Shown piece after piece: positions 12,394 through 20,600 of a stretch of DNA of 20,600 nucleotides. The notes beneath the pieces were generated by a model. It worked only from the letters and a program-made list of their open reading frames with translations, searched no databases and was not told where the DNA came from. Numbering within the stretch: position 1 is the first letter of the stretch; the number at the start of each line of letters is the position of its first letter. The stretch is from a virus, in IMG/VR virus record IMGVR_UViG_3300032323_001528, positions 1-20,600 of that record; one strand, given 5' to 3'. Made by a program: the position numbers and the translations under genes.

Positions 12394-12977
12394 GCTGCTT
12401 CCCCTTGTGTGTCTGCTGTCTTGGCTGCCTTCTTGAGAGCTGGGCCTTGGGCTTGCCAGAAGGCTGCCTTATGGGCTGACTTGGGCAGCGCCATGAACGC
12501 ATCGGACAAAGCCTTCTCGCCTTGCATGGCAGCCTCGCGCATGGCTGGCAGGGTGGCCTTCTCAAACTCGGCGTAACCGTCCAGCACCGCAGGCGTGCGC
12601 TTGCTGGCTGCATTGCCGTCGTCGTCTTCTGGCGCAATGCCGCAGGCTGCCATCAGGCTGTAGCGGCGTGCATAGGTCAGGGCGCTGCCGTACCCCTGGG
12701 CGTCGTGCTTGACTGCTGGCACGTGCAGCTTGCCTGCGCTGTAGGTCTCACCGGACTCATGCACAAAGACCGTTTCAACAATCACCCCGGCCTCGCACTC
12801 GTGGGTTTGTTGCACCAGGGCAATGCCGTTGTTGTTGAGGCCGTCCATCACTGCCTCGACGCAGGCCGCGAGGTCTGCATACCGGCTTTTGAAGTGGGGG
12901 TTGCTGCTGGACTTCAGTGCTGGCCCGAACTCGCGCTGGGCTTTCACCAGGGCTGCTGCTATCTGCTTGATTTCCAT
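12390..12977 (-). CDS. erf: Erf-family single-strand annealing protein (195 aa)
   Basis: ssDNA annealing recombinase. The start at 12977 (MEIKQIAAALVKAQREFGPA) has an AAAGG site and lies downstream of the predicted promoter; a longer reading to 13052 would run through the promoter. SSSNPHFKSRYADLAACVEAV is the hallmark Erf motif, and GYGSALTYARRYSLMAACGI is the second conserved block. The C-terminal third is a helical low-complexity tail. It is the first gene of the minus-strand operon, about 30 bases from the predicted transcription start. It probably works with YqaJ and SSB in recombination-dependent replication or genome circularisation. Confidence 0.94.
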   Translation of the reverse strand: MEIKQIAAALVKAQREFGPALKSSSNPHFKSRYADLAACVEAVMDGLNNNGIALVQQTHECEAGVIVETVFVHESGETYSAGKLHVPAVKHDAQGYGSALTYARRYSLMAACGIAPEDDDGNAASKRTPAVLDGYAEFEKATLPAMREAAMQGEKALSDAFMALPKSAHKAAFWQAQGPALKKAAKTADTQGEAA

Positions 12978-13014
12978 CGTGTTTACCTTTCGTGGGTGGT
13001 TGTTGGTGAAACGA

Positions 13015-13025
13015 ATCATAGCACA
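13015..13025 (-). promoter_or_regulatory. Extended -10 promoter for the erf-8651 recombination operon
   Basis: Minus-strand TGTGCTATGAT, with TGC before TATGAT. At 17 bases upstream the -35 position reads TATAAA, part of operator copy B. Transcription should start near 13008, about 30 bases before the erf ATG. The 11-mer is identical to the one before the small-gene operon at 8598. Confidence 0.65.
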
Positions 13026-13026
13026 G

Positions 13027-13043
13027 TAAAAGATAAATTTATA
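13027..13043 (-). repeat. Putative operator copy B
   Basis: Minus-strand TATAAA-TTT-ATCTTTTA. It ends two bases before the TGTGCTATGAT element, so a bound protein would cover the -35 region and spacer and should repress the erf promoter. It is copy B of three similar elements. Confidence 0.55.
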
Positions 13044-13050
13044 CAGCCAC

Positions 13051-13066
13051 AATAAAAAATCTTTTA
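13051..13066 (+). repeat. Putative operator copy C
   Basis: Plus-strand AATAAA-AA-ATCTTTTA, extended to the perfect palindrome AATAAAA-AATC-TTTTATT at 13051-13068. It is in the opposite orientation to copy B and 20 bases upstream of the plus-strand -10, so it covers the -35 region of the regulator promoter. About 24 bases separate the centres of B and C. Confidence 0.55.
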
Positions 13067-13081
13067 TTTTTTTGTTGGATG

Positions 13082-13092
13082 TGTGCTACAGT
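13082..13092 (+). promoter_or_regulatory. Extended -10 promoter for the Cro-like gene and replication operon
   Basis: TGTGCTACAGT shares TGTGCTA with the two minus-strand promoters. The -10 hexamer ends at 13092 and the ATG of the next gene is at 13100, so transcription likely begins at or 1-2 bases before the start codon. A poor -35 (TTTATT) at 18 bases lies in operator copy C. Confidence 0.55.
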
Positions 13093-13099
13093 CACGGAC

Positions 13100-13312
13100 A
13101 TGAACAAAGACGACCAATACTATGCACAGGTCTTGGCCTTTGCCCGAAAGAGCCTCGGCTCCTACAAGGCAGTGGCCAAGGCCATCGGTGCCCCAAGTGG
13201 CCCGGCTGTCCAAGCCTGGCTGATCAATGGCGTGGCCTTCCGGTGGCGTCCAGCCCTTGATAAAAGGTTTGGTGCCATGTACCGCAAGAGCTTGAATGAG
13301 CCTGCGGTCTAA
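13100..13312 (+). CDS. Cro/CI-like helix-turn-helix transcriptional regulator (70 aa)
   Basis: Small DNA-binding protein. Residues 21-47 read SYKAVAKAIG...PAVQAWLING, the Cro/YdaS-type helix-turn-helix with Ala in the turn-side helix and a Gln-Ala-Trp recognition helix. VAFRWRPALDKRFGAMYR resembles the following helix of YdaS-type proteins. It is divergently placed from erf, with two operator-like repeats between, the usual arrangement for an autoregulated phage repressor. I chose the ATG at 13100; an upstream ATG at 13079 would lie before the -10 and is unlikely to be transcribed. No Shine-Dalgarno is visible, which fits a leaderless message. Confidence 0.8.
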   Translation: MNKDDQYYAQVLAFARKSLGSYKAVAKAIGAPSGPAVQAWLINGVAFRWRPALDKRFGAMYRKSLNEPAV

Positions 13313-13322
13313 GGTAAAGTGA

Positions 13323-13415
13323 ATGTTGAACACGGCTAGGGTAGCTCCTGAAAAGACGATTCTTCACCGTCCTGCCGCTGTTTCTTTTGTGAAGCGAACC
13401 GACGAAGTAAGGTAA
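13323..13415 (+). CDS. 30-residue micro-ORF between regulator and replication gene
   Basis: ATG at 13323 with TAAGG eight bases upstream and TAA at 13413-13415. The encoded peptide (MLNTARVAPEKTILHRPAAV and ten more residues) is basic, with no recognised domain. The next gene's ribosome site, TAAGGTAAA, lies on its last codons, so its translation would feed directly into the DUF1376 gene. It occupies nearly all of the 106-base gap. It could be a real peptide, or a leader ORF that tunes replication-protein synthesis. Confidence 0.45.
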   Translation: MLNTARVAPEKTILHRPAAVSFVKRTDEVR

Positions 13416-13418
13416 AAA

Positions 13419-14111
13419 ATGCACTATTACCAGTTCAATATTGGCGACTACAAAAGCCACACCGAACACCTCTCAGACCTTGAAGACCTGGCCTACCGGC
13501 GAATGTTGGATTGGTACTACCTTCACGAAACCCCTTTGCCTTTGGAAACCAGCGAGATCGCACGCCTGATCAGGATGCGAACGCATACCGACTGCATTGC
13601 GGTCGTTTTGCAGGAGTTCTTCATTCGCAATGAAAACGGATGGACAAGCCACCGAGCAGATCTGGAAATTGCCAGGGCTGGCGAGAAGTCGACCAAGGCC
13701 AGCGAGAGTGCCAAGGCCAGGTGGAGCAAGCACAAAGATGCGGACGCAATGCGAACGCATAGCGAAAGCAATGCTACACAAGACACAATACACATAACAC
13801 AAGACCCAGAACACAAGAAAACAAAGACGCAGCGCGGCACGCGCCTGCCAACAGGTTTTGAGTTGCCAGACGAGTGGATTGGGTTTTGCAGACAAGAACG
13901 CGCAGACCTTGACCCGCAGACGGTGTTTGCTGAATTCCTGGACTACTGGATTGCACAGCCTGGCCAGAAGGGCGTCAAAACTGACTGGCCAGCCACCTGG
14001 AGAAACTGGGTGCGCAGGCAGACCGCCACACGCAGCGCACAAGGTCGGAACGAGCACAAACACGCTGCAGCCTCCCGAGCCATTTTTGATGGGGTGTTCG
14101 ACAATGAATAA
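13419..14111 (+). CDS. YdaU / DUF1376 replication-initiation-type protein (230 aa)
   Basis: The N-terminus MHYYQFNIGDYKSHTEHLSD, LAYRRMLDWYYLHETPLP and the following 'IARLIRM' helix match DUF1376 (YdaU), a winged-helix family in phage replication modules. A basic linker (SAKARWSKHK) and a Thr/His-rich disordered part lie at about residues 95-140. The C-terminal part (ELPDEWIGFCRQERADLDPQ, FAEFLDYWIA, KTDWPATWRNWVRRQ) is the accessory helical domain found in these proteins and in DnaT-like proteins. It probably acts like lambda O in origin binding, with the next gene as helicase loader. Whether an origin lies inside the linker region was not resolved. Confidence 0.85.
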   Translation: MHYYQFNIGDYKSHTEHLSDLEDLAYRRMLDWYYLHETPLPLETSEIARLIRMRTHTDCIAVVLQEFFIRNENGWTSHRADLEIARAGEKSTKASESAKARWSKHKDADAMRTHSESNATQDTIHITQDPEHKKTKTQRGTRLPTGFELPDEWIGFCRQERADLDPQTVFAEFLDYWIAQPGQKGVKTDWPATWRNWVRRQTATRSAQGRNEHKHAAASRAIFDGVFDNE

Positions 14112-14634
14112 CCTCGCTGAAATGGCAAGCCAAGCCATCCAGAACGCTGGCCAACAACCCGCACCCCGTGGCGACAACCCAACGATCCGCAAGCTGTTCA
14201 TCGTCTTGCACGGGTCTTACGGCAGCCTGTTCACCACCAAGTTTTCCACCGGCGAGCGTGACGCCAACGGCAAGGACAAGGGCATCCGTGCCGCCATGCT
14301 GGTCTGGGAGGCAGGCTTGGCCAAGTATTCACCGGACACCATCGAGACGGCAGCCAAGCGCCTGGCCGACGAGTGCCCTGCCTTCCCGCCAAACCTTCCG
14401 CAGTTCGAGGCGATCTGCAGGGCTGTGATGCCGCGCAAGACTTTCAGCGACGACCAACCGCGCAGACTACCGCCACCAGAATCCAAGCCGATCAGCCCGA
14501 TAGAGTTCCAGGCCATGAACGACGGCAAAGACTGGGCACGTAAGCTGCTGGCCAGGCAGGCCGCTGGCGACCGAGTGAACATCGGCAGCCTTGAGTGCGC
14601 AAAGAAGGCGCTCAGAATCCAGGAGGGTGAATGA
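14104..14634 (+). CDS. Putative P-like helicase-loader / replication protein (176 aa)
   Basis: The start MNNLAEMASQAIQNAG overlaps the upstream gene by 8 bases; a longer frame back to 13858 overlaps the whole second half of the DUF1376 gene and is rejected. Residues about 30-100 contain IRKLFIVLHGSYGSLFTTKF, an AAMLVWEAGL helix and ECPAFPPNLPQFEAICRAV. That last block has the 'W..aL...FPPs.g.F...C' look of lambda P-family replication proteins. A Pro-rich linker and a short helical C-terminus follow. Position after a DUF1376 gene matches an O/P-like pair. The assignment is by pattern and context and should be treated as probable, not certain. Confidence 0.6.
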   Translation: MNNLAEMASQAIQNAGQQPAPRGDNPTIRKLFIVLHGSYGSLFTTKFSTGERDANGKDKGIRAAMLVWEAGLAKYSPDTIETAAKRLADECPAFPPNLPQFEAICRAVMPRKTFSDDQPRRLPPPESKPISPIEFQAMNDGKDWARKLLARQAAGDRVNIGSLECAKKALRIQEGE

Positions 14635-14885
14635 CATGCACAGCCTGCCAAGCCCACGCCACCAACTCGCTGTCCGGCCAGTATCACTTTGGGTGCCTGT
14701 CGTGCTGCACCCGTCTAGTGATCAGCACCAGGCCGAACAAACAAGCAGCAGCAGGGATGCTGGCAGCGATTGCCAGATACCCACAGAACCCTGGCCGGGA
14801 GCGCATCTTGGCATCCGTCGCCCAGGCATTGACGAAACCCCCCTCAGCCTCGACGAGTGCTGGATCGCAGTCCGGGAGTGCCTGA
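14631..14885 (+). CDS. Small zinc-ribbon protein (84 aa)
   Basis: The start at 14631 overlaps the upstream stop (ATGA) and has AGGAGGG before it. Cys3, Cys6, Cys22, Cys25 and Cys26 form two CxxC pairs separated by about 16 residues, a zinc-ribbon pattern. A helical segment (NKQAAAGMLAAIARYPQNPG) follows, then a Ser/Ala-rich tail. It sits just before ninB, where phage nin regions commonly carry small zinc proteins. The molecular role is unknown. Confidence 0.7.
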   Translation: MTCTACQAHATNSLSGQYHFGCLSCCTRLVISTRPNKQAAAGMLAAIARYPQNPGRERILASVAQALTKPPSASTSAGSQSGSA

Positions 14886-14886
14886 C

Positions 14887-15324
14887 ATGACCGAACGCCA
14901 ACGATTCACGCTGTGGGAGCCGGTGCAGGCCCACAAAATCATCACCCTCCAGCTCTGGCCTCTGCTCAAGTCCATGCTTATGGCTGGCCAGCGGGTGGTG
15001 GTCGAGATCAAACCCGAAACCCGCACACTGGCACAAAATGCGCGTTTGTGGGCGATGTTGACCGATGTGGCCAAGCAGGTGAACTGGTATGGCCGCAAGC
15101 TGTCGGAAGAGGAATGGAAGCACGTGTTTACCGCCAGCCTGGCCAAGCAGGACGTCGTGCCTGGCATCGATGGCGGCTTTGTGGTGCTCGGCAAGTCCAC
15201 CAGCAAAATGACCAAGCCCGAGATGAGCGAGCTGCAGGACTTGATCGAGGCATTCGGTGCGCAGCAGGGTGTGCGCTTCACCGCGCCAGAGTACGTTGAC
15301 CCTGAGACTGGAGAGATCACATGA
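14887..15324 (+). CDS. ninB: NinB recombination protein (145 aa)
   Basis: NinB family (lambda Orf), a recombination mediator that binds ssDNA and can substitute for RecFOR functions. The order VVVEIKPETRTLAQNARLWAML, NWYGRKLSEEEWKHVFTASL, VVPGIDGGFVVLGKSTSKMTK, EMSELQDLIEAFGAQQGVRF is characteristic. GGGAG eight bases upstream supports the ATG at 14887 rather than an in-frame GTG-type start at 14857. It follows the replication genes as in lambdoid nin regions, and its stop overlaps a 41-residue membrane peptide gene. Confidence 0.95.
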   Translation: MTERQRFTLWEPVQAHKIITLQLWPLLKSMLMAGQRVVVEIKPETRTLAQNARLWAMLTDVAKQVNWYGRKLSEEEWKHVFTASLAKQDVVPGIDGGFVVLGKSTSKMTKPEMSELQDLIEAFGAQQGVRFTAPEYVDPETGEIT

Positions 15325-15446
15325 AACTTACAGAGGCAGACAAGGCAGGCATTTTGGCTTTGGTTTGGCTTGGGATTGCAGGCGTCGGCGCATGGTTCAC
15401 GATTGCTGCGATTGTCTTGGTGCACATCAAAAGGTGGTTTTTATGA
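15321..15446 (+). CDS. 41-residue single-TM micro-protein
   Basis: ATG at 15321 overlaps the ninB stop (ATGA) and has GGAG seven bases upstream. Its TGA at 15444-15446 overlaps the next start (ATGA). The peptide is nearly all hydrophobic after a charged start (MKLTEADKAG): ILALVWLGIAGVGAWFTIAA then IVLVHIK, ending RWFL. This predicts one long membrane helix. No family is recognised. It may be a phage membrane peptide with a role in superinfection exclusion or membrane association. Confidence 0.65.
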   Translation: MKLTEADKAGILALVWLGIAGVGAWFTIAAIVLVHIKRWFL

Positions 15447-15688
15447 CTCTTGAAGAACTCGCAGCCATCCCGCTGCAATACACCTTCGGGTACAGCGCAG
15501 AAGATCATGGCCTGCGCCAGTACCAAAGCGAGGACGGTCTGATCGCCAAGCAGGTCTACACGCCACGCAAGATCAGCACTGGCGAGTGGGGAAAAGGCAA
15601 AGCCACGTTCATGCTGACCGACACAAGGGAAGAGTTCGACACTGTGCAGGAGCTGCTGGACGCCATCAACGCAAGGAGCAACGCATGA
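15443..15688 (+). CDS. Hypothetical phage protein (81 aa)
   Basis: The start is the ATG at 15443, with AAGG nearby and an ATGA overlap; a longer frame from 15257 is a shadow over ninB. The protein is soluble, with beta strands and aromatic residues (LQYTFGYSAEDHGLRQYQ, YTPRKISTGEWGKGKATFML) and a C-terminal helix (FDTVQELLDAINARSNA). It is not assigned to a family. It lies in the coupled nin-like region between a membrane peptide and another unknown. Confidence 0.72.
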   Translation: MTLEELAAIPLQYTFGYSAEDHGLRQYQSEDGLIAKQVYTPRKISTGEWGKGKATFMLTDTREEFDTVQELLDAINARSNA

Positions 15689-15939
15689 GCAACATCACGC
15701 CATTGCGCGGCGCGTCCGTGCCAACCAATGAGCCGAACGCTGCACTGGTGGCTGCGCTCAAAGACATCTTGGCCGATGCTGAATCTGGCCGTCTGCAGTC
15801 ATTCTTTGCCGCAGGCTTCCTGGCCGATGGCCTGCGAATGTCCTGCGTGCTTGGTGACCATTCCAACGTCTACGAGGTGATCGGCTCGATTGAGATGCTG
15901 AAGCACCACTACATCACCAACCACACGGAGAGACTATGA
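15685..15939 (+). CDS. Hypothetical phage protein, helical (84 aa)
   Basis: The ATG at 15685 has AAGGAG six bases upstream and overlaps the preceding stop (ATGA). The protein has an Ala-rich helix (ALVAALKDILADAESGR) followed by a Phe/Ala/Gly segment and an amphipathic C-terminal helix (VYEVIGSIEMLKHHYITNH). No membrane segment and no catalytic motif are visible. It could be a small regulatory or partner-binding protein of the nin-like operon. Confidence 0.7.
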   Translation: MSNITPLRGASVPTNEPNAALVAALKDILADAESGRLQSFFAAGFLADGLRMSCVLGDHSNVYEVIGSIEMLKHHYITNHTERL

Positions 15940-16193
15940 GCATGCGACCGACTGAATTTGAGATTCGCGATCATCGAACAGACATCATCCCGCTGGATGT
16001 TTGCTTTGATCCAGAAACACAGATCGGACAGATCAATGGGTACAACGTGAGCCAAGACGGCGAAACGATCACATTGACGCACGAGATGGCGAAGTACTTG
16101 CTGCTGGCCATTGAGAAGATAGAGCAGTCGCGGCCAGAGCGTGTCGAAAAGCAATGGCCAGAAAACTGGGTGGAGTCTGGTGATGACATTTGA
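15936..16193 (+). CDS. Hypothetical phage protein (85 aa)
   Basis: The start at 15936 overlaps the upstream stop (ATGA) with GGAG before it; a second ATG two codons in is possible. It is acidic, with a beta-rich first half (EFEIRDHRTDIIPLDVCFD) and a helix (THEMAKYLLLAIEKIEQS) in the second half. Its end overlaps the next gene by 11 bases. Family not recognised. The overlap chain and ribosome site argue it is real. Confidence 0.72.
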   Translation: MSMRPTEFEIRDHRTDIIPLDVCFDPETQIGQINGYNVSQDGETITLTHEMAKYLLLAIEKIEQSRPERVEKQWPENWVESGDDI

Positions 16194-16374
16194 CGAGTGG
16201 TTTCGAACCTACCCACTTCCTGCTGAGATCGACAGCATGGACGAGACCGACCGCCAGCAGTGGACGTGGGCCTTGCGCTCTGCTTACAAGACAGGCATGG
16301 AGGCTGGCAAGAAAACCTGTCCGCCTTGCAACAACGAATGCAACCAGGGCAGAGACTGCCCCGCACGCAAATGA
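16183..16374 (+). CDS. Small Cys-containing phage protein (63 aa)
   Basis: I prefer the ATG at 16183 (MTFDEWFRTYPLPAEIDSMD), with GGAG seven bases upstream, over a GTG at 16141 inside the upstream gene. The first 40 residues are acidic and helical with several Trp. The last 20 contain four Cys (CPPCNNECNQGRDC) in a dense cluster compatible with one zinc site. It overlaps the Ref-like nuclease gene by ATGA, so the two may be co-regulated. Function unknown. Confidence 0.65.
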   Translation: MTFDEWFRTYPLPAEIDSMDETDRQQWTWALRSAYKTGMEAGKKTCPPCNNECNQGRDCPARK

Positions 16375-16658
16375 CCACAAACGCTGAACGCAAGCACATG
16401 AACAGGGTGGCCGAGCTTGGCTGCGCTGTATGCTGGCGCGTGCACGGCCCACATGATCCCGGCCCGGTGGAGCTGCACCACCCTCGGCACGGCACCGGCA
16501 TGGGCCAGCGTGCCAAGCACATGGACGTCATCCCGCTGTGCCCGGAACACCACCGTGGAAACACTGGCTTGCACGGCCTGGGCACGAAGGGCTTTGCCAA
16601 GCACTACGGATTCAACGAGGCCGATCTTCTGGCCGATACACTGGAGCGACTGAAATGA
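16371..16658 (+). CDS. Ref-like RecA-dependent HNH-type nuclease (95 aa)
   Basis: Resembles the C-terminal nuclease domain of the P1 Ref (recombination enhancement) family. VAELGCAVCWRV supplies Cys18 and Cys21. GPVELHHPRHGTGMGQRAKH carries His36-His37 and GMGQRAKH, and MDVIPLCPEHHRGNTGLHGLG carries Cys57 and His60-His61. These match the zinc and HNH positions of the family in order. P1 Ref cuts DNA at RecA-formed displacement loops. Here it lies in a RecA-relevant setting with NinB and RusA. The start overlaps the upstream stop (ATGA). Length is shorter than P1 Ref and similar to other phage members. Confidence 0.85.
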   Translation: MTTNAERKHMNRVAELGCAVCWRVHGPHDPGPVELHHPRHGTGMGQRAKHMDVIPLCPEHHRGNTGLHGLGTKGFAKHYGFNEADLLADTLERLK

Positions 16659-16936
16659 CTAACGTCAACGAAATGCTGGAAGGACGCCAGGCCAGATATG
16701 GCAGCTTCCAAGGACATGCCGAGATCAGCCAGGTTCTCAAGCAGGTTATTCACTCAGCGGCCAAAGCACGCAACAAAGAGCTGGAGCATGACCAACTGGA
16801 GGCGCTGGACATGATCGCGCACAAGATCGCACGGGTCATCAACGGCGACCCAAACTATGCCGACAACTGGATCGACATCGCAGGCTACGCCACTCTGGTG
16901 GCCGACCGGCTGGAAGGCGACAATGGAGCAGCTTGA
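16655..16936 (+). CDS. DUF6378 family protein (93 aa)
   Basis: The sequence LEGRQARYGSFQGHAEISQ, then EHDQLEALDMIAHKIARVINGD and NYADNWIDIAGYATLVADRL, matches the DUF6378 pattern I know from many proteobacterial phages. It is a compact all-alpha protein, probably binding DNA or a nucleotide, of unknown activity. The acidic and His residues (H in GHAE, E and D in EALDMIAHK, D in NWIDIAGY) recall MazG-like helices, but this is not established. ATGA joins it to the Ref-like gene and a 14-base overlap joins it to the next. Confidence 0.85.
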   Translation: MTNVNEMLEGRQARYGSFQGHAEISQVLKQVIHSAAKARNKELEHDQLEALDMIAHKIARVINGDPNYADNWIDIAGYATLVADRLEGDNGAA

Positions 16937-17039
16937 AACCCTGTGGCCCGTCCTGCTGACCATTGCACTTGTTGCACTTGGCCAGTGGTGGGGTGTCGTG
17001 GCGCTGTGGATCTGGCTAATCTGGACGAGGTGGAAATGA
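16923..17039 (+). CDS. 38-residue Trp-rich membrane micro-protein
   Basis: ATG at 16923 has GGAAGG upstream and overlaps the DUF6378 gene by 14 bases; the TGA at 17037-17039 overlaps rusA (ATGA). The sequence MEQLETLWPVLLTIALVALG continues QWWGVVALWIWLIWTRWK, a membrane helix with seven Trp and a basic end. Tiny hydrophobic phage proteins of this type can sit in the inner membrane and modulate it. Role unknown. Confidence 0.65.
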   Translation: MEQLETLWPVLLTIALVALGQWWGVVALWIWLIWTRWK

Positions 17040-17374
17040 TCATCAAGCTGCCATGGCCACCAACCGGCCTGTCCCCGAACGCCAGAAACCACTGGGCCAA
17101 GACCGCCAAGCTAAAAAAGCAGTACCGCGAGGCCTGTTTCTGGCAGTCCATGGAACAAGGCGCACGGCCTATCCAGTCCGCCAGCCTGCACCTGACCTTG
17201 ACGTTCTACCCGCCAACCCGCAGGCAGTACGACCTGGACAACGCCCTGGCACGCATGAAAGCCGGTCTGGATGGCCTGTCCGACGTGCTCAAGGTAGACG
17301 ACAAATACTGGACGCTGACCATCCGTAAGGGCGAGACGGTCGGCGGATTCGTAGAAGTTGAAATAACCCATTGA
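17036..17374 (+). CDS. rusA: RusA-type Holliday junction resolvase (112 aa)
   Basis: Resolves four-way junctions during phage recombination. The N-terminus LPWPPTGLSPNARNHWAKTA is the family start (pPs.N..w). YDLDNALARMKAGLDGL supplies Asp66 and Asp68 and KVDDKYW supplies Asp88 and Asp89, matching the three acidic metal ligands of E. coli RusA (Asp70, Asp72, Asp91). Length is typical. It ends the ATGA-coupled nin-like operon; the promoter of the following HNH gene overlaps its stop codon. Confidence 0.95.
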   Translation: MIIKLPWPPTGLSPNARNHWAKTAKLKKQYREACFWQSMEQGARPIQSASLHLTLTFYPPTRRQYDLDNALARMKAGLDGLSDVLKVDDKYWTLTIRKGETVGGFVEVEITH

Positions 17375-17400
17375 AAATAGTTGCAGCTATGCTTTATAAT
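17371..17400 (+). promoter_or_regulatory. Strong sigma70-like promoter before the HNH gene
   Basis: TTGAAA at 17371-17376, an 18-base spacer and TATAAT at 17395-17400. It is the closest match to the sigma70 consensus in the window. The predicted transcription start is at or just before the ATG at 17407. The -35 overlaps the rusA stop codon. Confidence 0.75.
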
Positions 17401-17406
17401 GGTTGC

Positions 17407-17913
17407 ATGGATGCAGAAAACTGGAAGCAACTACCCGGATTCGAGGCCTATGAGGTTTCAGACCATGGGAACGTGCGGCGCATCAGCCCCGGCAAAGGCA
17501 CGCGGCCAATGCGCCAGCTCAGGCCGTGCCTGGATCACGTTGGCCGCATGGTGTTCAATGCACGCAAGGACGGCAAGGTCAAGCAATGGAAAGTCCACCG
17601 CGCAGTAATGCAGGCCTTCTGTGGCGACTGCCCAGAAGGAATGGAAGTGGCTCACCTGGACGGAGACCAGACCAACAACCGGCTGACAAATTTGGCCTAT
17701 GCCACCCCAGTTGAGAACAATTCCCACAAAGTCGGCCATGGCACGCAGCCAAAAGGCGTGCAGATTTGGTGCGCAAAGCTGACAGAAGATCAAGTGCTGG
17801 AAATCCGCGCAAGATCGCCTCAGATCAGCTATGCCAAGCTGGCGACAGAGTACGGCGTAAGCCTGATGACCATCGCGCAAGTAATCACGCGCAAGACTTG
17901 GAAGCACGTTTGA
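17407..17913 (+). CDS. NUMOD4-HNH homing-type endonuclease (168 aa)
   Basis: Free-standing homing-type nuclease. Residues 5-25 (NWKQLPGFEAYEVSDHGNVR) are a NUMOD4 DNA-recognition module. VHRAVMQAFCGD and GMEVAHLDGDQTNNRLTNL form the HNH_3 core with His83 and Asn91. A C-terminal helix-turn-helix (KLTEDQVLEIRARS, then SYAKLATEYGVSLMTIAQVI) at about 124-160 adds DNA specificity. It has its own sigma70 promoter and possibly a leaderless start at 17407; a frame beginning at 17371 lies upstream of the -10. It sits just before the terminase genes, a common site for HNH genes in phages, where some assist packaging rather than home. Confidence 0.88.
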   Translation: MDAENWKQLPGFEAYEVSDHGNVRRISPGKGTRPMRQLRPCLDHVGRMVFNARKDGKVKQWKVHRAVMQAFCGDCPEGMEVAHLDGDQTNNRLTNLAYATPVENNSHKVGHGTQPKGVQIWCAKLTEDQVLEIRARSPQISYAKLATEYGVSLMTIAQVITRKTWKHV

Positions 17914-17915
17914 CC

Positions 17916-18401
17916 ATGGGCCTTTTCACTGACATTCAGCACCGAACCCGTGATGACGCAGGCTGCGCAGTCTGGAGATTCTCATGCTGCAATGGCCACC
18001 CAGCCATGCGCAAGGATGGCAAGACCGTTCTTGTGCGCCGAGCCATCTGGACTGACGCGAATGGGGAAATCCCTGATGGCAAGATCATCCGCATGACCTG
18101 CGAGACACCGAAGTGCATCCACCCTGAGCACATGGAGCTGACGACATACAAGCGACTCGGCAAACAACTTGGAGCACTTGGCATGATGTCCGGCCCAGTC
18201 CGAAGCGCCAAGATCGCAGAGACAAAGCGCAAAAAATACGCGAAACTTACAGCTGAAGCCGTGGACGAAATCAGGACAAGCAACGAGACAGGCCGCGCCA
18301 TGGCCGCAAAGTTTCAGGTGGACGAAAAGCACATCAGCCGAATCCGACTGAACAAATGCTGGAAACAGTTTTCAAGCCCGTTTGCAGGATTGGCGAGGTA
18401 A
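17916..18401 (+). CDS. Degenerate HNH-like protein with C-terminal HTH (161 aa)
   Basis: Residues 38-75 (VLVRRAIWTDANGEIPDGKI, then TCETPKCIHPEHMEL) follow the HNH pattern 'hR..y....G.ip.g..v.H.CdnpxCvNPeHl'. The first His is Met60 and the Asn is His69, while Cys62, Cys67 and His72 remain. It may bind zinc and DNA without normal cleavage. Residues 109-150 (KLTAEAVDEIRTSN, AMAAKFQVDEKHISRI, CWKQF) resemble the C-terminal module of the HNH gene two bases upstream. A weak ribosome site suggests coupling to that gene. It may be an inactive partner, a DNA-binding regulator, or a packaging factor. Confidence 0.75.
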   Translation: MGLFTDIQHRTRDDAGCAVWRFSCCNGHPAMRKDGKTVLVRRAIWTDANGEIPDGKIIRMTCETPKCIHPEHMELTTYKRLGKQLGALGMMSGPVRSAKIAETKRKKYAKLTAEAVDEIRTSNETGRAMAAKFQVDEKHISRIRLNKCWKQFSSPFAGLAR

Positions 18402-18404
18402 GTC

Positions 18405-18902
18405 ATGGCCACGAAAAAACTAAAACAAGCACCCAAAACAGAGAGCAAGCCAACAAAGGACGAGATCATCCAGAACGTGCTGGATGGCATGGCCATTGGT
18501 GGCCTGAGCTGCTTCAAAGCCTGCCAGGCAGCTGGAGTGCCGAACAGCACTTTCATGCGATGGGTGGATGCTGACGCGAAACTTGCGGAGAGGTACGCGC
18601 ACGCGAGGGAAGACCTGATCGAGCGCATGGCAAATGAGGTGCTGGAGCTGGCCGACAGCGAAGTTCCCGAGACTGGAGACGGAAAGCGCGACTGGCAGGC
18701 CATCCAGCAGCGCAAACTGCAAGTGGACAGCCGCAAATGGCTGCTTTCCAAGCTGGCCCCGAAAAAGTATGGCGACCGGCTGGAGTTGGCAGGCGACAAG
18801 GAAAACCCGCTGCAAGTGCAGACCATCGATGCCTCAAAGTTATCCACAGAAGTGCTGGCGCAGATCATCGCGGCCAAAGACGATGTTACTGACCGAAGCT
18901 GA
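18405..18902 (+). CDS. Terminase small subunit, Sf6/P22-like (165 aa)
   Basis: DNA-recognition subunit of the packaging motor. After a basic start (MATKKLKQAPKTESKPTKDE), residues about 25-60 form an HTH (GLSCFKACQAAGVPNSTFMRWVD), then a helical core (YAHAREDLIERMANEVLELA) and an oligomerisation segment with QQRKLQVDSRKWLLSKLAPKKYGDR, the Sf6-like terminase small subunit signature. The C-terminal tail would bind the large subunit. It overlaps the large subunit gene by 20 bases. Together with the P22-type portal this points to headful packaging. Confidence 0.92.
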   Translation: MATKKLKQAPKTESKPTKDEIIQNVLDGMAIGGLSCFKACQAAGVPNSTFMRWVDADAKLAERYAHAREDLIERMANEVLELADSEVPETGDGKRDWQAIQQRKLQVDSRKWLLSKLAPKKYGDRLELAGDKENPLQVQTIDASKLSTEVLAQIIAAKDDVTDRS

Positions 18903-20349
18903 CCTGCTGGCCGTCGAGCGCGAGCTGTGCAGGCGCAGCCTTGCCGAGTTTGCCAAGCGTGCCTGGCGCGTGCTTGAACCGGCTGCCGAGCTGAAGTGGG
19001 GTTGGGCGCTCGATGCCATCTGCCTGCACCTGGAGGCCGTGACTAAGGGCGACATAAACCGCCTGCTGATGAACGTGCCACCCGGCTCCATGAAGTCCCT
19101 GCTGACCGGCGTGATCTGGCCAGCCTGGGAATGGGGGCCAAGAAACCTGCCCGAGATGCGCTTTGTTGGAACGGCCCACGAAGAGCAGCTGGCCATCCGA
19201 GACAGCCGACGCTGCCGAGACCTGATCAAGTCCGAGTGGTATCAGCAGCTCTGGCCCATTGAGCTGCTGGCCGATCTGGACGGCAAGCGCGAGTTTGGCA
19301 ACACAAAAAAGGGCATCCGGCAGGCCCGCGCCTTCACCAGCATGACAGGCGTGCGCGGCGACAGGGTTATCCTGGACGACCCGATCAGCGCCGACAATGC
19401 CAACAGCCAGGCCAAGCTGGAGGCGGCCAAGATCGCCTTCACCGAGACCCTTCCGACCCGTGTCAACTCCGAAAAGTCGGCCATTGTGGTGATCATGCAG
19501 CGCCTGAACGAGAAAGACATCTCCGGCGTCATCAAGGAGATGGGCCTGCCGTATGTGCACCTGAACATCCCGATGCGCTTTGAGGCGGCTTTCCGCTGCA
19601 CCACCAGCATAGGCTGGACAGATCCGCGCACCCACGATGGGGAGCTGATGTTTCCAGAGCGATTTGGTGAAGCCCAGGTGGCCGAGCTGGAGAAAACCCT
19701 GGGAACCTACGGCACAGCCGGACAGCTGCAACAGAGGCCAGCACCCCGAGGTGGCGGCATCATCAACACCGAATGGTTCAAGTTCTGGTCGAGTACCCCG
19801 CAGCTCGAGTTCCGCTTCCTGACCGTGGACACGGCCCAAAAGACTGCCGACCACAACGACTGGACGGTGCTGCAGTGCTGGGCACGCTCGACTGTTGGCC
19901 AAGCAGTGAAGCTCGACCAGATTCGAGGCAAGTGGGAAGCACCAGAGCTGCTGGTGCAGGCCAGGGCTTTCTGGCTCAAGCACCTGAACGACCAGCGGCC
20001 CGTGGCCCTAGGCTCTGCCATGCGTGGCATGTATGTGGAAGACAAGGTGTCTGGCACAGGCCTGATCCAGACCTTCCGGCGCGAAGGCATCCCGGTGGTG
20101 GCCGTGCAGCGCAACAAAGACAAGATCAGCCGAGGCTACGATGCAGCACCGTTCATCGAATCTGGCAACGTCCTACTGCCACACGATGCGCCCTGGCTGT
20201 CCGATTTCCTTGCTGAGGTGGCCGCTTTCCCGTCTGGTGCACACGACGATCAGCTCGACCCAATGTTCGACGCCATCAATCTGGTGCAGCGTCTACCGGC
20301 AAACAAGCAGCAATCATTCGTCCCTTTGCCAAATTTGAAGAAGTGGTGA
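18883..20349 (+). CDS. Terminase large subunit, ATPase and nuclease (488 aa)
   Basis: DNA packaging motor. The ATPase domain carries a variant Walker A, VPPGSMKS (residues 65-72), Walker B VILDD (162-166) and the coupling motif VVIMQR (about 202-207). The RNase H-like nuclease domain has FLTVDTAQK with Asp316, VEDKVSGTG with Glu386 and Asp387, and HDDQLD with Asp455, Asp456 and Asp459. All are in the expected order. I chose the ATG at 18883, which overlaps the small subunit gene by 20 bases; a longer frame to 18634 is overlap only. Length matches headful terminases. The portal gene follows after a short gap. Confidence 0.95.
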   Translation: MLLTEADLLAVERELCRRSLAEFAKRAWRVLEPAAELKWGWALDAICLHLEAVTKGDINRLLMNVPPGSMKSLLTGVIWPAWEWGPRNLPEMRFVGTAHEEQLAIRDSRRCRDLIKSEWYQQLWPIELLADLDGKREFGNTKKGIRQARAFTSMTGVRGDRVILDDPISADNANSQAKLEAAKIAFTETLPTRVNSEKSAIVVIMQRLNEKDISGVIKEMGLPYVHLNIPMRFEAAFRCTTSIGWTDPRTHDGELMFPERFGEAQVAELEKTLGTYGTAGQLQQRPAPRGGGIINTEWFKFWSSTPQLEFRFLTVDTAQKTADHNDWTVLQCWARSTVGQAVKLDQIRGKWEAPELLVQARAFWLKHLNDQRPVALGSAMRGMYVEDKVSGTGLIQTFRREGIPVVAVQRNKDKISRGYDAAPFIESGNVLLPHDAPWLSDFLAEVAAFPSGAHDDQLDPMFDAINLVQRLPANKQQSFVPLPNLKKW

Positions 20350-20363
20350 TTTTTTAAGCTCGG

Positions 20364-20372
20364 TGAGATAAT
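20364..20372 (+). promoter_or_regulatory. Possible extended -10 promoter before the portal gene
   Basis: TGAGATAAT gives TG one base before GATAAT, with no convincing -35. A start near 20379 would leave a 16-base leader containing the GAGGA ribosome site. It may be a late promoter for portal and structural genes, or chance. Confidence 0.3.
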
Positions 20373-20394
20373 CCGCACAAATTGAGGAACCAAT

Positions 20395-20600
20395 ATGGCC
20401 CGAATCAGCAACGACCAACGTCTCGCCAATCTTCACTCAGAAGCCCTGGCGCAGTTTGATGACGTACAGACAGCCCTCCGAGACGAGCGCTTGCAATGTC
20501 TCCAAGACCGGCGCTTCTACTCTCTGGCAGGCAGCCAGTGGGAAGGCCCACTCTGGGACTTGTACGAGAACAAGCCCAAGTTTGAGGTCAACAAGATCAT
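20395..20600 (+). CDS. P22-type portal protein (N-terminal 68 residues, 3' truncated)
   Basis: Portal vertex subunit through which DNA is packaged and ejected. The reading frame from ATG at 20395 (GAGGA seven bases upstream) is open to the window end. ALRDERLQCLQDRRFYSLAG, SQWEGPLWDLYENKPKFEVN is the N-terminal portal pattern of P22-like phages ('RfY..aG.QW......r..P.l..N'). The rest of the gene lies outside the window. It follows the large terminase, the normal gene order. Confidence 0.85.
   Translation, partial: MARISNDQRLANLHSEALAQFDDVQTALRDERLQCLQDRRFYSLAGSQWEGPLWDLYENKPKFEVNKI

Follow-up and report, generated by a model that had tools for sequence, protein, structure and literature searches.

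A phage protein family with a predicted zinc-held nuclease fold and predicted loss of catalysis, and its member P0002, encoded beside an intact I-HmuI-like HNH protein

Gene order and the intact HNH protein P0001

The window, meaning the whole stretch of DNA analyzed here, is a 20.6 kb virus record (20,600 nt; IMG/VR IMGVR_UViG_3300032323_001528, positions 1 to 20,600). At the locus of interest, a gene for a RusA-like resolvase is followed by two genes encoding the HNH-like proteins P0001 and P0002, and then by the genes for the small and large terminase subunits (Table 1). P0001 and P0002 are real open frames with a spacing of 2 nt, and 3 nt lie between the end of P0002 and the terminase small subunit gene (terS). 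The RusA-like neighbor stays under the Pfam RusA cut-off (19.0 vs 22.8; frame scanned 16943-17371). A first-pass annotation had drawn attention to the interval from 17773 to 18370, and its coordinates are correct: 17773 falls on A123 of P0001, at the start of AKLT, and 18370 lies within F152 of P0002.

Table 1. Features of the locus, with positions in the window, strand and basis of assignment
Feature	Position	Strand	Basis
RusA-like Holliday junction resolvase	17036..17374	+	phrog_34, E 2.9e-24; start codon picked by eye
Candidate sigma-70-like promoter, TTGAAA-N18-TATAAT	17371..17400	+	11/12 consensus matches
Direct repeat GTTGC-N17-GTTGC flanking the -10 box, possible operator (speculative)	17380..17406	+	sequence reading
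P0001, NUMOD4 + HNH_3 + HTH, 168 aa, intact I-HmuI-like	17407..17913	+	
P0001 C-terminal HTH module (aa 123-168)	17773..17910	+	three helices in model
P0002, predicted catalytically dead zinc His-Me finger + HTH, 161 aa	17916..18401	+	
Putative zinc ligand Cys17	17964..17966	+	C in 55/55 dead and 14/14 active-type rows; ligand role predicted
Lost His, R41 (by spacing I-HmuI H56)	18036..18038	+	dead rows R 54, S 1; His in 14/14 active-type rows
Lost general base, M60 (I-HmuI H75)	18093..18095	+	never His in 55; His in 14/14
Zinc loop C62-x4-C67-x4-H72, variable at 69	18099..18131	+	C62 and C67 in 55/55; position 72 His 52, Cys 3
Lost metal ligand, L81 (I-HmuI N96)	18156..18158	+	never Asn in 55; Asn in 14/14
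Linker motif GALGxMSGPVRSxxIAxxKR (aa 86-105), mark of the P0002 subclade	18171..18230	+	mostly invariant in alignment A2 (14 rows)
P0002 C-terminal HTH module (aa 109-152)	18240..18371	+	three helices, pLDDT 81-87
P0002 C-terminal tail S(S/N)P(F/W)xGL (aa 153-159)	18372..18392	+	pattern in 51/58 family rows
Terminase small subunit (terS)	18405..18902	+	Sf6_terminase, 90.8 bits
Terminase large subunit, Terminase_6C type	18883..20349	+	PF17289, 43.7 bits; phrog_38

P0001 scores above the Pfam cut-offs for both HNH_3 (51.0 bits) and NUMOD4 (30.2 bits), the domain combination of the I-HmuI type, and carries the His and Asn that go with it. It matches I-HmuI (1u3e) by phmmer (E 4.1e-11), and its model can be aligned with that structure over 104 residues at 2.4 A (VIA-align, Z 12.8). 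All 10 rows of an alignment of P0001 relatives (A4) have H64, R65, H83 and N104, which upholds the intact HNH core proposed for this gene.

The candidate promoter lies directly ahead of P0001, and transcription from it would begin at or near the P0001 ATG. Its -10 box ends 6 nt ahead of that codon, and the transcript may be leaderless. An alternative start, TTG at 17371, also precedes the ATG. By consensus alone the promoter carries no weight, since a scan of 12800-20600 gave one sigma-70-like match vs 2.3 expected by shuffling. The 36-nt block before P0001 (17371-17406) is kept at 27-36/36 in 8/8 loci compared, while the 36 nt upstream of it fall to 6-25/36 in 5/8 loci. The first copy of the GTTGC repeat reads GTTGT in locus L025. 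Homology of the window with L041 sets in at 17371, where the block starts, that with L023 and L024 stops at 17913, the end of P0001, and that with L044 starts at 17915; exchange boundaries coincide with gene edges. Because the block is conserved and homology edges fall at 17371 and 17913, P0001 behaves as a cassette carrying its own promoter, and these two edges are at most an indirect sign of homing by P0001.

Lost catalytic residues and retained zinc residues in the P0002 family

P0002 barely passes the Pfam HNH_3 cut-off (25.1 vs 24.8 bits), and its PHROG matches are to families that bear the name HNH endonuclease. Relatives were gathered from IMG/VR scans and from a phage collection, the latter taken among the matches listed (60 of 668 matched records), and make up 58 rows, 55 of them distinct (three identical proteins); many rows from L086-L108 are near one another within the set of 55. 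Left out were L017 (a 41-residue remnant), L109 (25% identity, partial, with N at 41, M at 60 and nothing at 81) and duplicate contig copies, such as L006, L012, L016, L018-L022, L039-L051, L068, L082, L083 and L085. These rows, called dead here for their predicted loss of catalysis, were compared with a hand-picked, non-random set of 14 active-type relatives from the match lists, namely 13 named phages and L057. An HNH_3 match at E <= 1 was obtained for 15/19 rows of alignment A3, a count that may include the outgroup row L057.

His at position 41, His at position 60 and Asn at position 81 are each found in 0/55 dead rows, and all three are found in 14/14 active-type rows. Position 60 varies widely in the dead rows (A 22, M 15, V 6, C 4, Y 3, T 2, P 2, N 1). 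In P0002 itself, Met60 replaces the general-base His of an HNH endonuclease, as the first-pass annotation had said, and Leu81 takes the place of the metal-binding Asn. The profile search that had been proposed as a check on the Met/His change indicates that loss of His60 is conserved, with 0/55 distinct homologues carrying it, and a one-off mutation of P0002 is thereby ruled out. The second substitution named at the outset, Asn to His69, does not hold as a catalytic loss. Asn69 is kept in 37/55 dead rows, and position 69 is Asn in 13/14 active-type relatives and Glu in the remaining one, so that His69 had to be discarded as the lost metal ligand. The spacings from 41 to 60 (19) and from 60 to 81 (21), counted by hand on the alignment, are the same as those of H56/H75/N96 in I-HmuI and of H64/H83/N104 in P0001, which places the metal-binding Asn at position 81, not 69. 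Homologues that keep Asn69 therefore do not speak for an intact site, and none with His60 was found among the 55.

The predicted zinc ligands are retained, as had been claimed, at the counts given in Table 1, and C17, R42, C62 and C67 are present in 69/69 rows (55 dead and 14 active-type). From these losses we strongly infer that P0002 is non-catalytic. In I-PpoI, His98 is described as the main base and His78 as a reserve, with activity lower still when both are lost (PMC11325842). His78 would correspond to position 41 of P0002, by a spacing of 20 vs 19. Since I-PpoI H98A retains some activity, P0002 as a weak nuclease stays conceivable. Profile labels such as Pfam HNH_3 and PHROG 'HNH endonuclease' name predicted-dead proteins of this kind as nucleases, which calls for caution in their use.

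Purifying selection is evident in ten near pairs of P0002 relatives (omega 0.050-0.119), and in most of them constraint is as strong on the HNH part as on the remainder of the protein. In more distant pairs omega is higher (0.17-0.31 for L052/L053, L054/L055 and L056/L058), with none computable for two. In a tree of 32 rows, active-type rows fall on one side of a single branch, with support of 100/99 when all columns are used and 98/95 when trait columns and linker are removed. A tree of 48 rows (34 of the 55), also built after removal of trait columns and linker, has one change of state (100/99); its midpoint root lies inside the dead group, and the direction of the change, a loss, is taken from the wider superfamily. 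On these alignments, the change of state in the P0002 family is old and maintained. It is highly improbable that P0002 is a functionless, decaying homing endonuclease kept by hitch-hiking. The mobile-looking exchange at gene edges and the one truncated copy in L017 would fit such decay, but an omega of 0.05-0.12 in near pairs, zinc residues in 55/55 rows and one old loss common to the clade do not, and the selection test already disfavors it.

Beyond phages, 25 plasmid records match P0002 at E <= 1e-3. A scan of bacterial genome contigs with narrow patterns returned pattern candidates and no P0002 relative, a weak negative, and NCBIfam gave no match close to its cut-off. A search of the PDB by sequence gave no useful match for P0002 or alignment A3, and a literature search restricted to open-access sources found no account of the family. 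IcmJ/DotN was considered as a second dead-HNH precedent and set aside, having given weak matches to P0001 alone and none in the literature search.

Domain layout, structural models and origin of the gene pair

The AlphaFold2 model of P0002 has a mean pLDDT of 81, with about 88-93 in the nuclease-like part, the HTH values listed in Table 1, and poor values in linker and tail. In VIA-align, I-PpoI and I-HmuI head the list at Z 7.2 each, below the tool's safe level. Residues ~1-80 next match Smad MH1 (best Z 5.0, 73 residues, 3.4 A) and also the DNA-binding domains of NFI (best Z 4.4), and a Z of 4 to 7 may reflect common arrangement alone, according to the tool's own warning. The HTH region matches sigma region 4 and the DNA-binding domains of Tc3 transposase. 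Foldseek with the same model gave no match at E <= 0.001 against the PDB (best 0.14) and 125 matches at that threshold against viral models, of which the top ones are named HNH endonucleases. The 8 family proteins checked are basic (pI 9.5-10.1, net charge +10 to +15).

Besides the losses, the marks common to the whole P0002 family are a VRR step and the C-terminal tail, whose pattern is missing in 7/58 rows, 4 of which run off the contig. The linker motif is more restricted: active-type rows lack it, and the branches of L059 and L033 show it only weakly. In L074 (3001-3801), the dead HNH part continues in frame into an unrelated C-terminal half in place of the HTH; this half looks RuvC-like by eye, and in Pfam it gives DUF460 only, below cut-off (E 0.0038). 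A truncated relative lies between terS and the large subunit gene in L017 (2213-2425), where the first 41 residues are followed by unrelated sequence.

Both proteins had been credited with one C-terminal pattern. The pattern as quoted, drawn by eye, is approximate: P0001 has I..V for I..I, P0002 has EIR.S for EIR..S, and A..A..F.V is inexact in P0002. The likeness itself stands, since local alignment of the two modules (BLOSUM62) scores 46 vs 19.3 +/- 3.8 for shuffles, a value reached by 2/2000. Structure prediction by AlphaFold2, the check suggested for this point, gives a three-helix C-terminus in both proteins, with helices at 127-136/142-149/153-160 in P0001 (pLDDT 52-70, and 38 at the very end) and at 113-121/126-133/137-144 in P0002. 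Judged by alignment score, the two HTH modules are homologous, and the description of the second protein as a degenerate HNH protein that keeps its zinc ligands and has an HTH of the same type as its neighbor is borne out.

Local duplication of P0001 to give P0002, one of the origins first suggested, is not upheld, because each HTH has closer relatives elsewhere. Aligned with the HTHs of HNH proteins from T7-like phages, that of P0002 scores 107 (23/42 identical to L034 and L035), vs 46 with the HTH of P0001; the HTH of P0001 in turn reaches 109 with L026, 105 with L031 and 103 with L067, all of them other HNH proteins. The HNH halves barely match (score 29, reached by 50/2000 shuffles). By the same comparisons, the HTH module is a common phage HNH appendage, and local duplication is thus unnecessary. 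An obligate P0001-P0002 pair is likewise rejected. P0001 is found in 5/23 records that hold P0002 relatives (a weak match in G008, E 9.4e-4, is uncounted; one of the 23 has a truncated P0002 alone and one begins inside P0002), and 4/4 P0001 records without P0002, which may be fragments, match alignment A3 at P0001 only. P0001 would be a separate, catalytically intact, homing-endonuclease-like HNH protein that mosaic exchange may have placed beside P0002.

Genomic place, possible roles and known systems

P0002 adjoins terS in the window and in close relatives, and it lies just after terS in L009-L014 and L017. A role in packaging, in which P0002 would bind at or near pac or cos and help terminase start like HK97 gp74 but without cutting, draws on this contact and on HK97, where the HNH nuclease upstream of terminase is reported to act together with it (PMC10448857). 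We regard this role as improbable, because HK97-type action requires a nuclease and P0002 lacks those residues. Moreover, P0002 proteins that are 96% identical stand ahead of Terminase_6C in the window but of Terminase_3 in L005, and distant members, among the matches listed, are placed elsewhere than beside terminase, in early recombination regions or by capsid genes. Comparison of L005:4490-6144 with window positions 18405-20349 places near-identical P0001-P0002 ahead of different large-terminase families, and the likeness of the terS products (78%) is confined to residues 1-142, suggesting exchange within terS. Members of the P0002 subclade have terminase as a neighbor, those in MW202462 and L089 do not; adjacency of this kind marks the subclade, not the family as a whole.

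Recombination genes are also found nearby. A short distance upstream there is a RusA, NinB, Ref-like or YbcO gene in the window, L053, L055, L013, L059 and L071, Erf and SSB genes are upstream in L089, and Erf and SSB are annotated near the MW202462 member. HTH modules usually recognize sequence, not structure, which counts against a P0002 that would bind branched or junction DNA as a recombination accessory aiding these neighbors. Such a role remains unlikely, although the recombination genes and the in-frame fusion of an HNH-like part to RuvC-like sequence in L074 argue for it, since the neighborhood is not universal (the relative in L051 precedes a ClpP-capsid gene, and those in L009 and L014 follow terS) and was annotated for chosen loci only. 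In L055, a Q-like gene lies by the P0002 relative. What these placements have in common is a position between the early and the late genes, not terminase.

Between P0001 and terS, close relatives of the window carry P0002. In L020 (4511-5269) a C5 methyltransferase takes this slot, and so it does, judged by sequence only, in L023 (1833-2591) and L024 (4511-5233). These replacements mark P0002 as dispensable. An N6/N4 methyltransferase follows P0001 in L025 (4492-5748), and an N6 methyltransferase lies beside P0002 in L013 (4468-5241). The swaps and neighbors are what would be expected if P0002 were a decoy or immunity factor, masking a homing-nuclease site (e.g. that of P0001) or shielding phage DNA from restriction, but the chance of this seems slim. 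Just 5/23 records that have P0002 relatives also have P0001, phages often carry methyltransferases as cargo, and common DNA targets are supposition. In L017 (53-1027), a DNA methyltransferase also adjoins the variable slots around P0001, P0002 and terS. Two small genes accompany P0002 relatives elsewhere. One of ~111 aa lies directly 5' of them in two differing contexts (L009:3669-4004 and L051:5666-6004), and its product in L009 has no PHROG match. Another, of 58-59 aa, overlaps the end of the relative in L089 (3489-3668), with similar genes in the L033 branch and no Pfam match for its product.

The reuse first proposed for the second protein, as a repressor, decoy or packaging factor, survives in part: reuse as a DNA-binding protein is likeliest, and packaging is weakened by the two large-terminase families beside near-identical P0002. 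A dead zinc-held fold, an HTH, a charge of +10 to +15 and lasting selection are most simply explained by DNA binding, and P0002 probably binds DNA rather than cuts it. The N-terminal 80 residues would still fold as the zinc-held His-Me finger known from nucleases of the I-HmuI/I-PpoI type, the changes H60 to M, H41 to R and N81 to L would leave the protein able to bind and not cut, and the HTH would supply a second DNA contact. In phage-related systems, homing-endonuclease parts have been turned into transcriptional repressors, as in the PLE CapR repressor and the I-TevI autorepressor (PMC10448857). The DNA-binding make-up together with these precedents favors a regulator, and the view that P0002 is a sequence-specific, two-domain DNA-binding regulator of phage transcription, built from a dead nuclease and comparable to Smad MH1, is given about an even chance. 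Regulation of transcription, and its target, are guessed from anatomy, place and precedent; P0002 might act near the early/late boundary, as repressor or activator. Counting against a regulator, the 2-4 nt between P0001, P0002 and terS leave no room for an operator beside P0002, the genome place differs among branches, and the gene is dispensable. More tentative, and on balance doubtful, is the fuller proposal of a phage counterpart of Smad MH1/NFI: a sizeable family of phage transcription regulators, derived in a single event from a nuclease of the zinc His-Me finger type, with two DNA-binding domains, a conserved SNPFAGL-like tail as partner-binding peptide and action at the early/late boundary, to which the family libraries scanned here give the name 'HNH endonuclease'.

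The family offers a clear phage case in which a homing-type nuclease fold appears to have lost catalysis once and then persisted under purifying selection. Relatives with all residues intact are available for comparison, and the path from nuclease to regulator is testable in small phage proteins.

Among known systems, I-HmuI (1u3e) and I-PpoI (1a74, 2o6m) have a His-Me finger fold like that modeled for P0002, at the Z of 7.2 given above (12.8 for P0001 and I-HmuI), but in P0002 their catalytic residues are gone and the C-terminal HTH is of a different type. Smad MH1 and NFI rank after these homing endonucleases against the P0002 model (Z 5.0 and, at best, 4.4), and sequence searches with P0002 and A3 gave no match to either. 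Both are eukaryotic transcription factors, and their likeness to P0002 may be convergent or a matter of common fold only; Smad MH1 has reportedly been called a degraded homing endonuclease, by Grishin in 2001 (as cited in PMC4256011). CapR and I-TevI belong to other nuclease families than P0002 (T5orf172 and GIY-YIG), and CapR retains a DNA-binding domain only, whereas P0002 retains a dead nuclease fold. Packaging HNH proteins of the HK97 gp74 type, like the P0002 subclade, place an HNH fold beside terminase, but they need an active nuclease, the residues of which P0002 lacks. Closest in layout are the HNH + HTH proteins of T7-like phages (the 'HNH endonuclease' of Klebsiella and Kayfunavirus phages, and 7.7 of Citrobacter phage CR44b), which have the same domain order, the same C17/C62/C67/H72 zinc pattern and, in L034 and L035, the closest HTH modules. 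They keep the H41, H60 and N81 that P0002 lacks, and neither the S(S/N)P(F/W)xGL tail nor the linker motif of P0002 is present in them.
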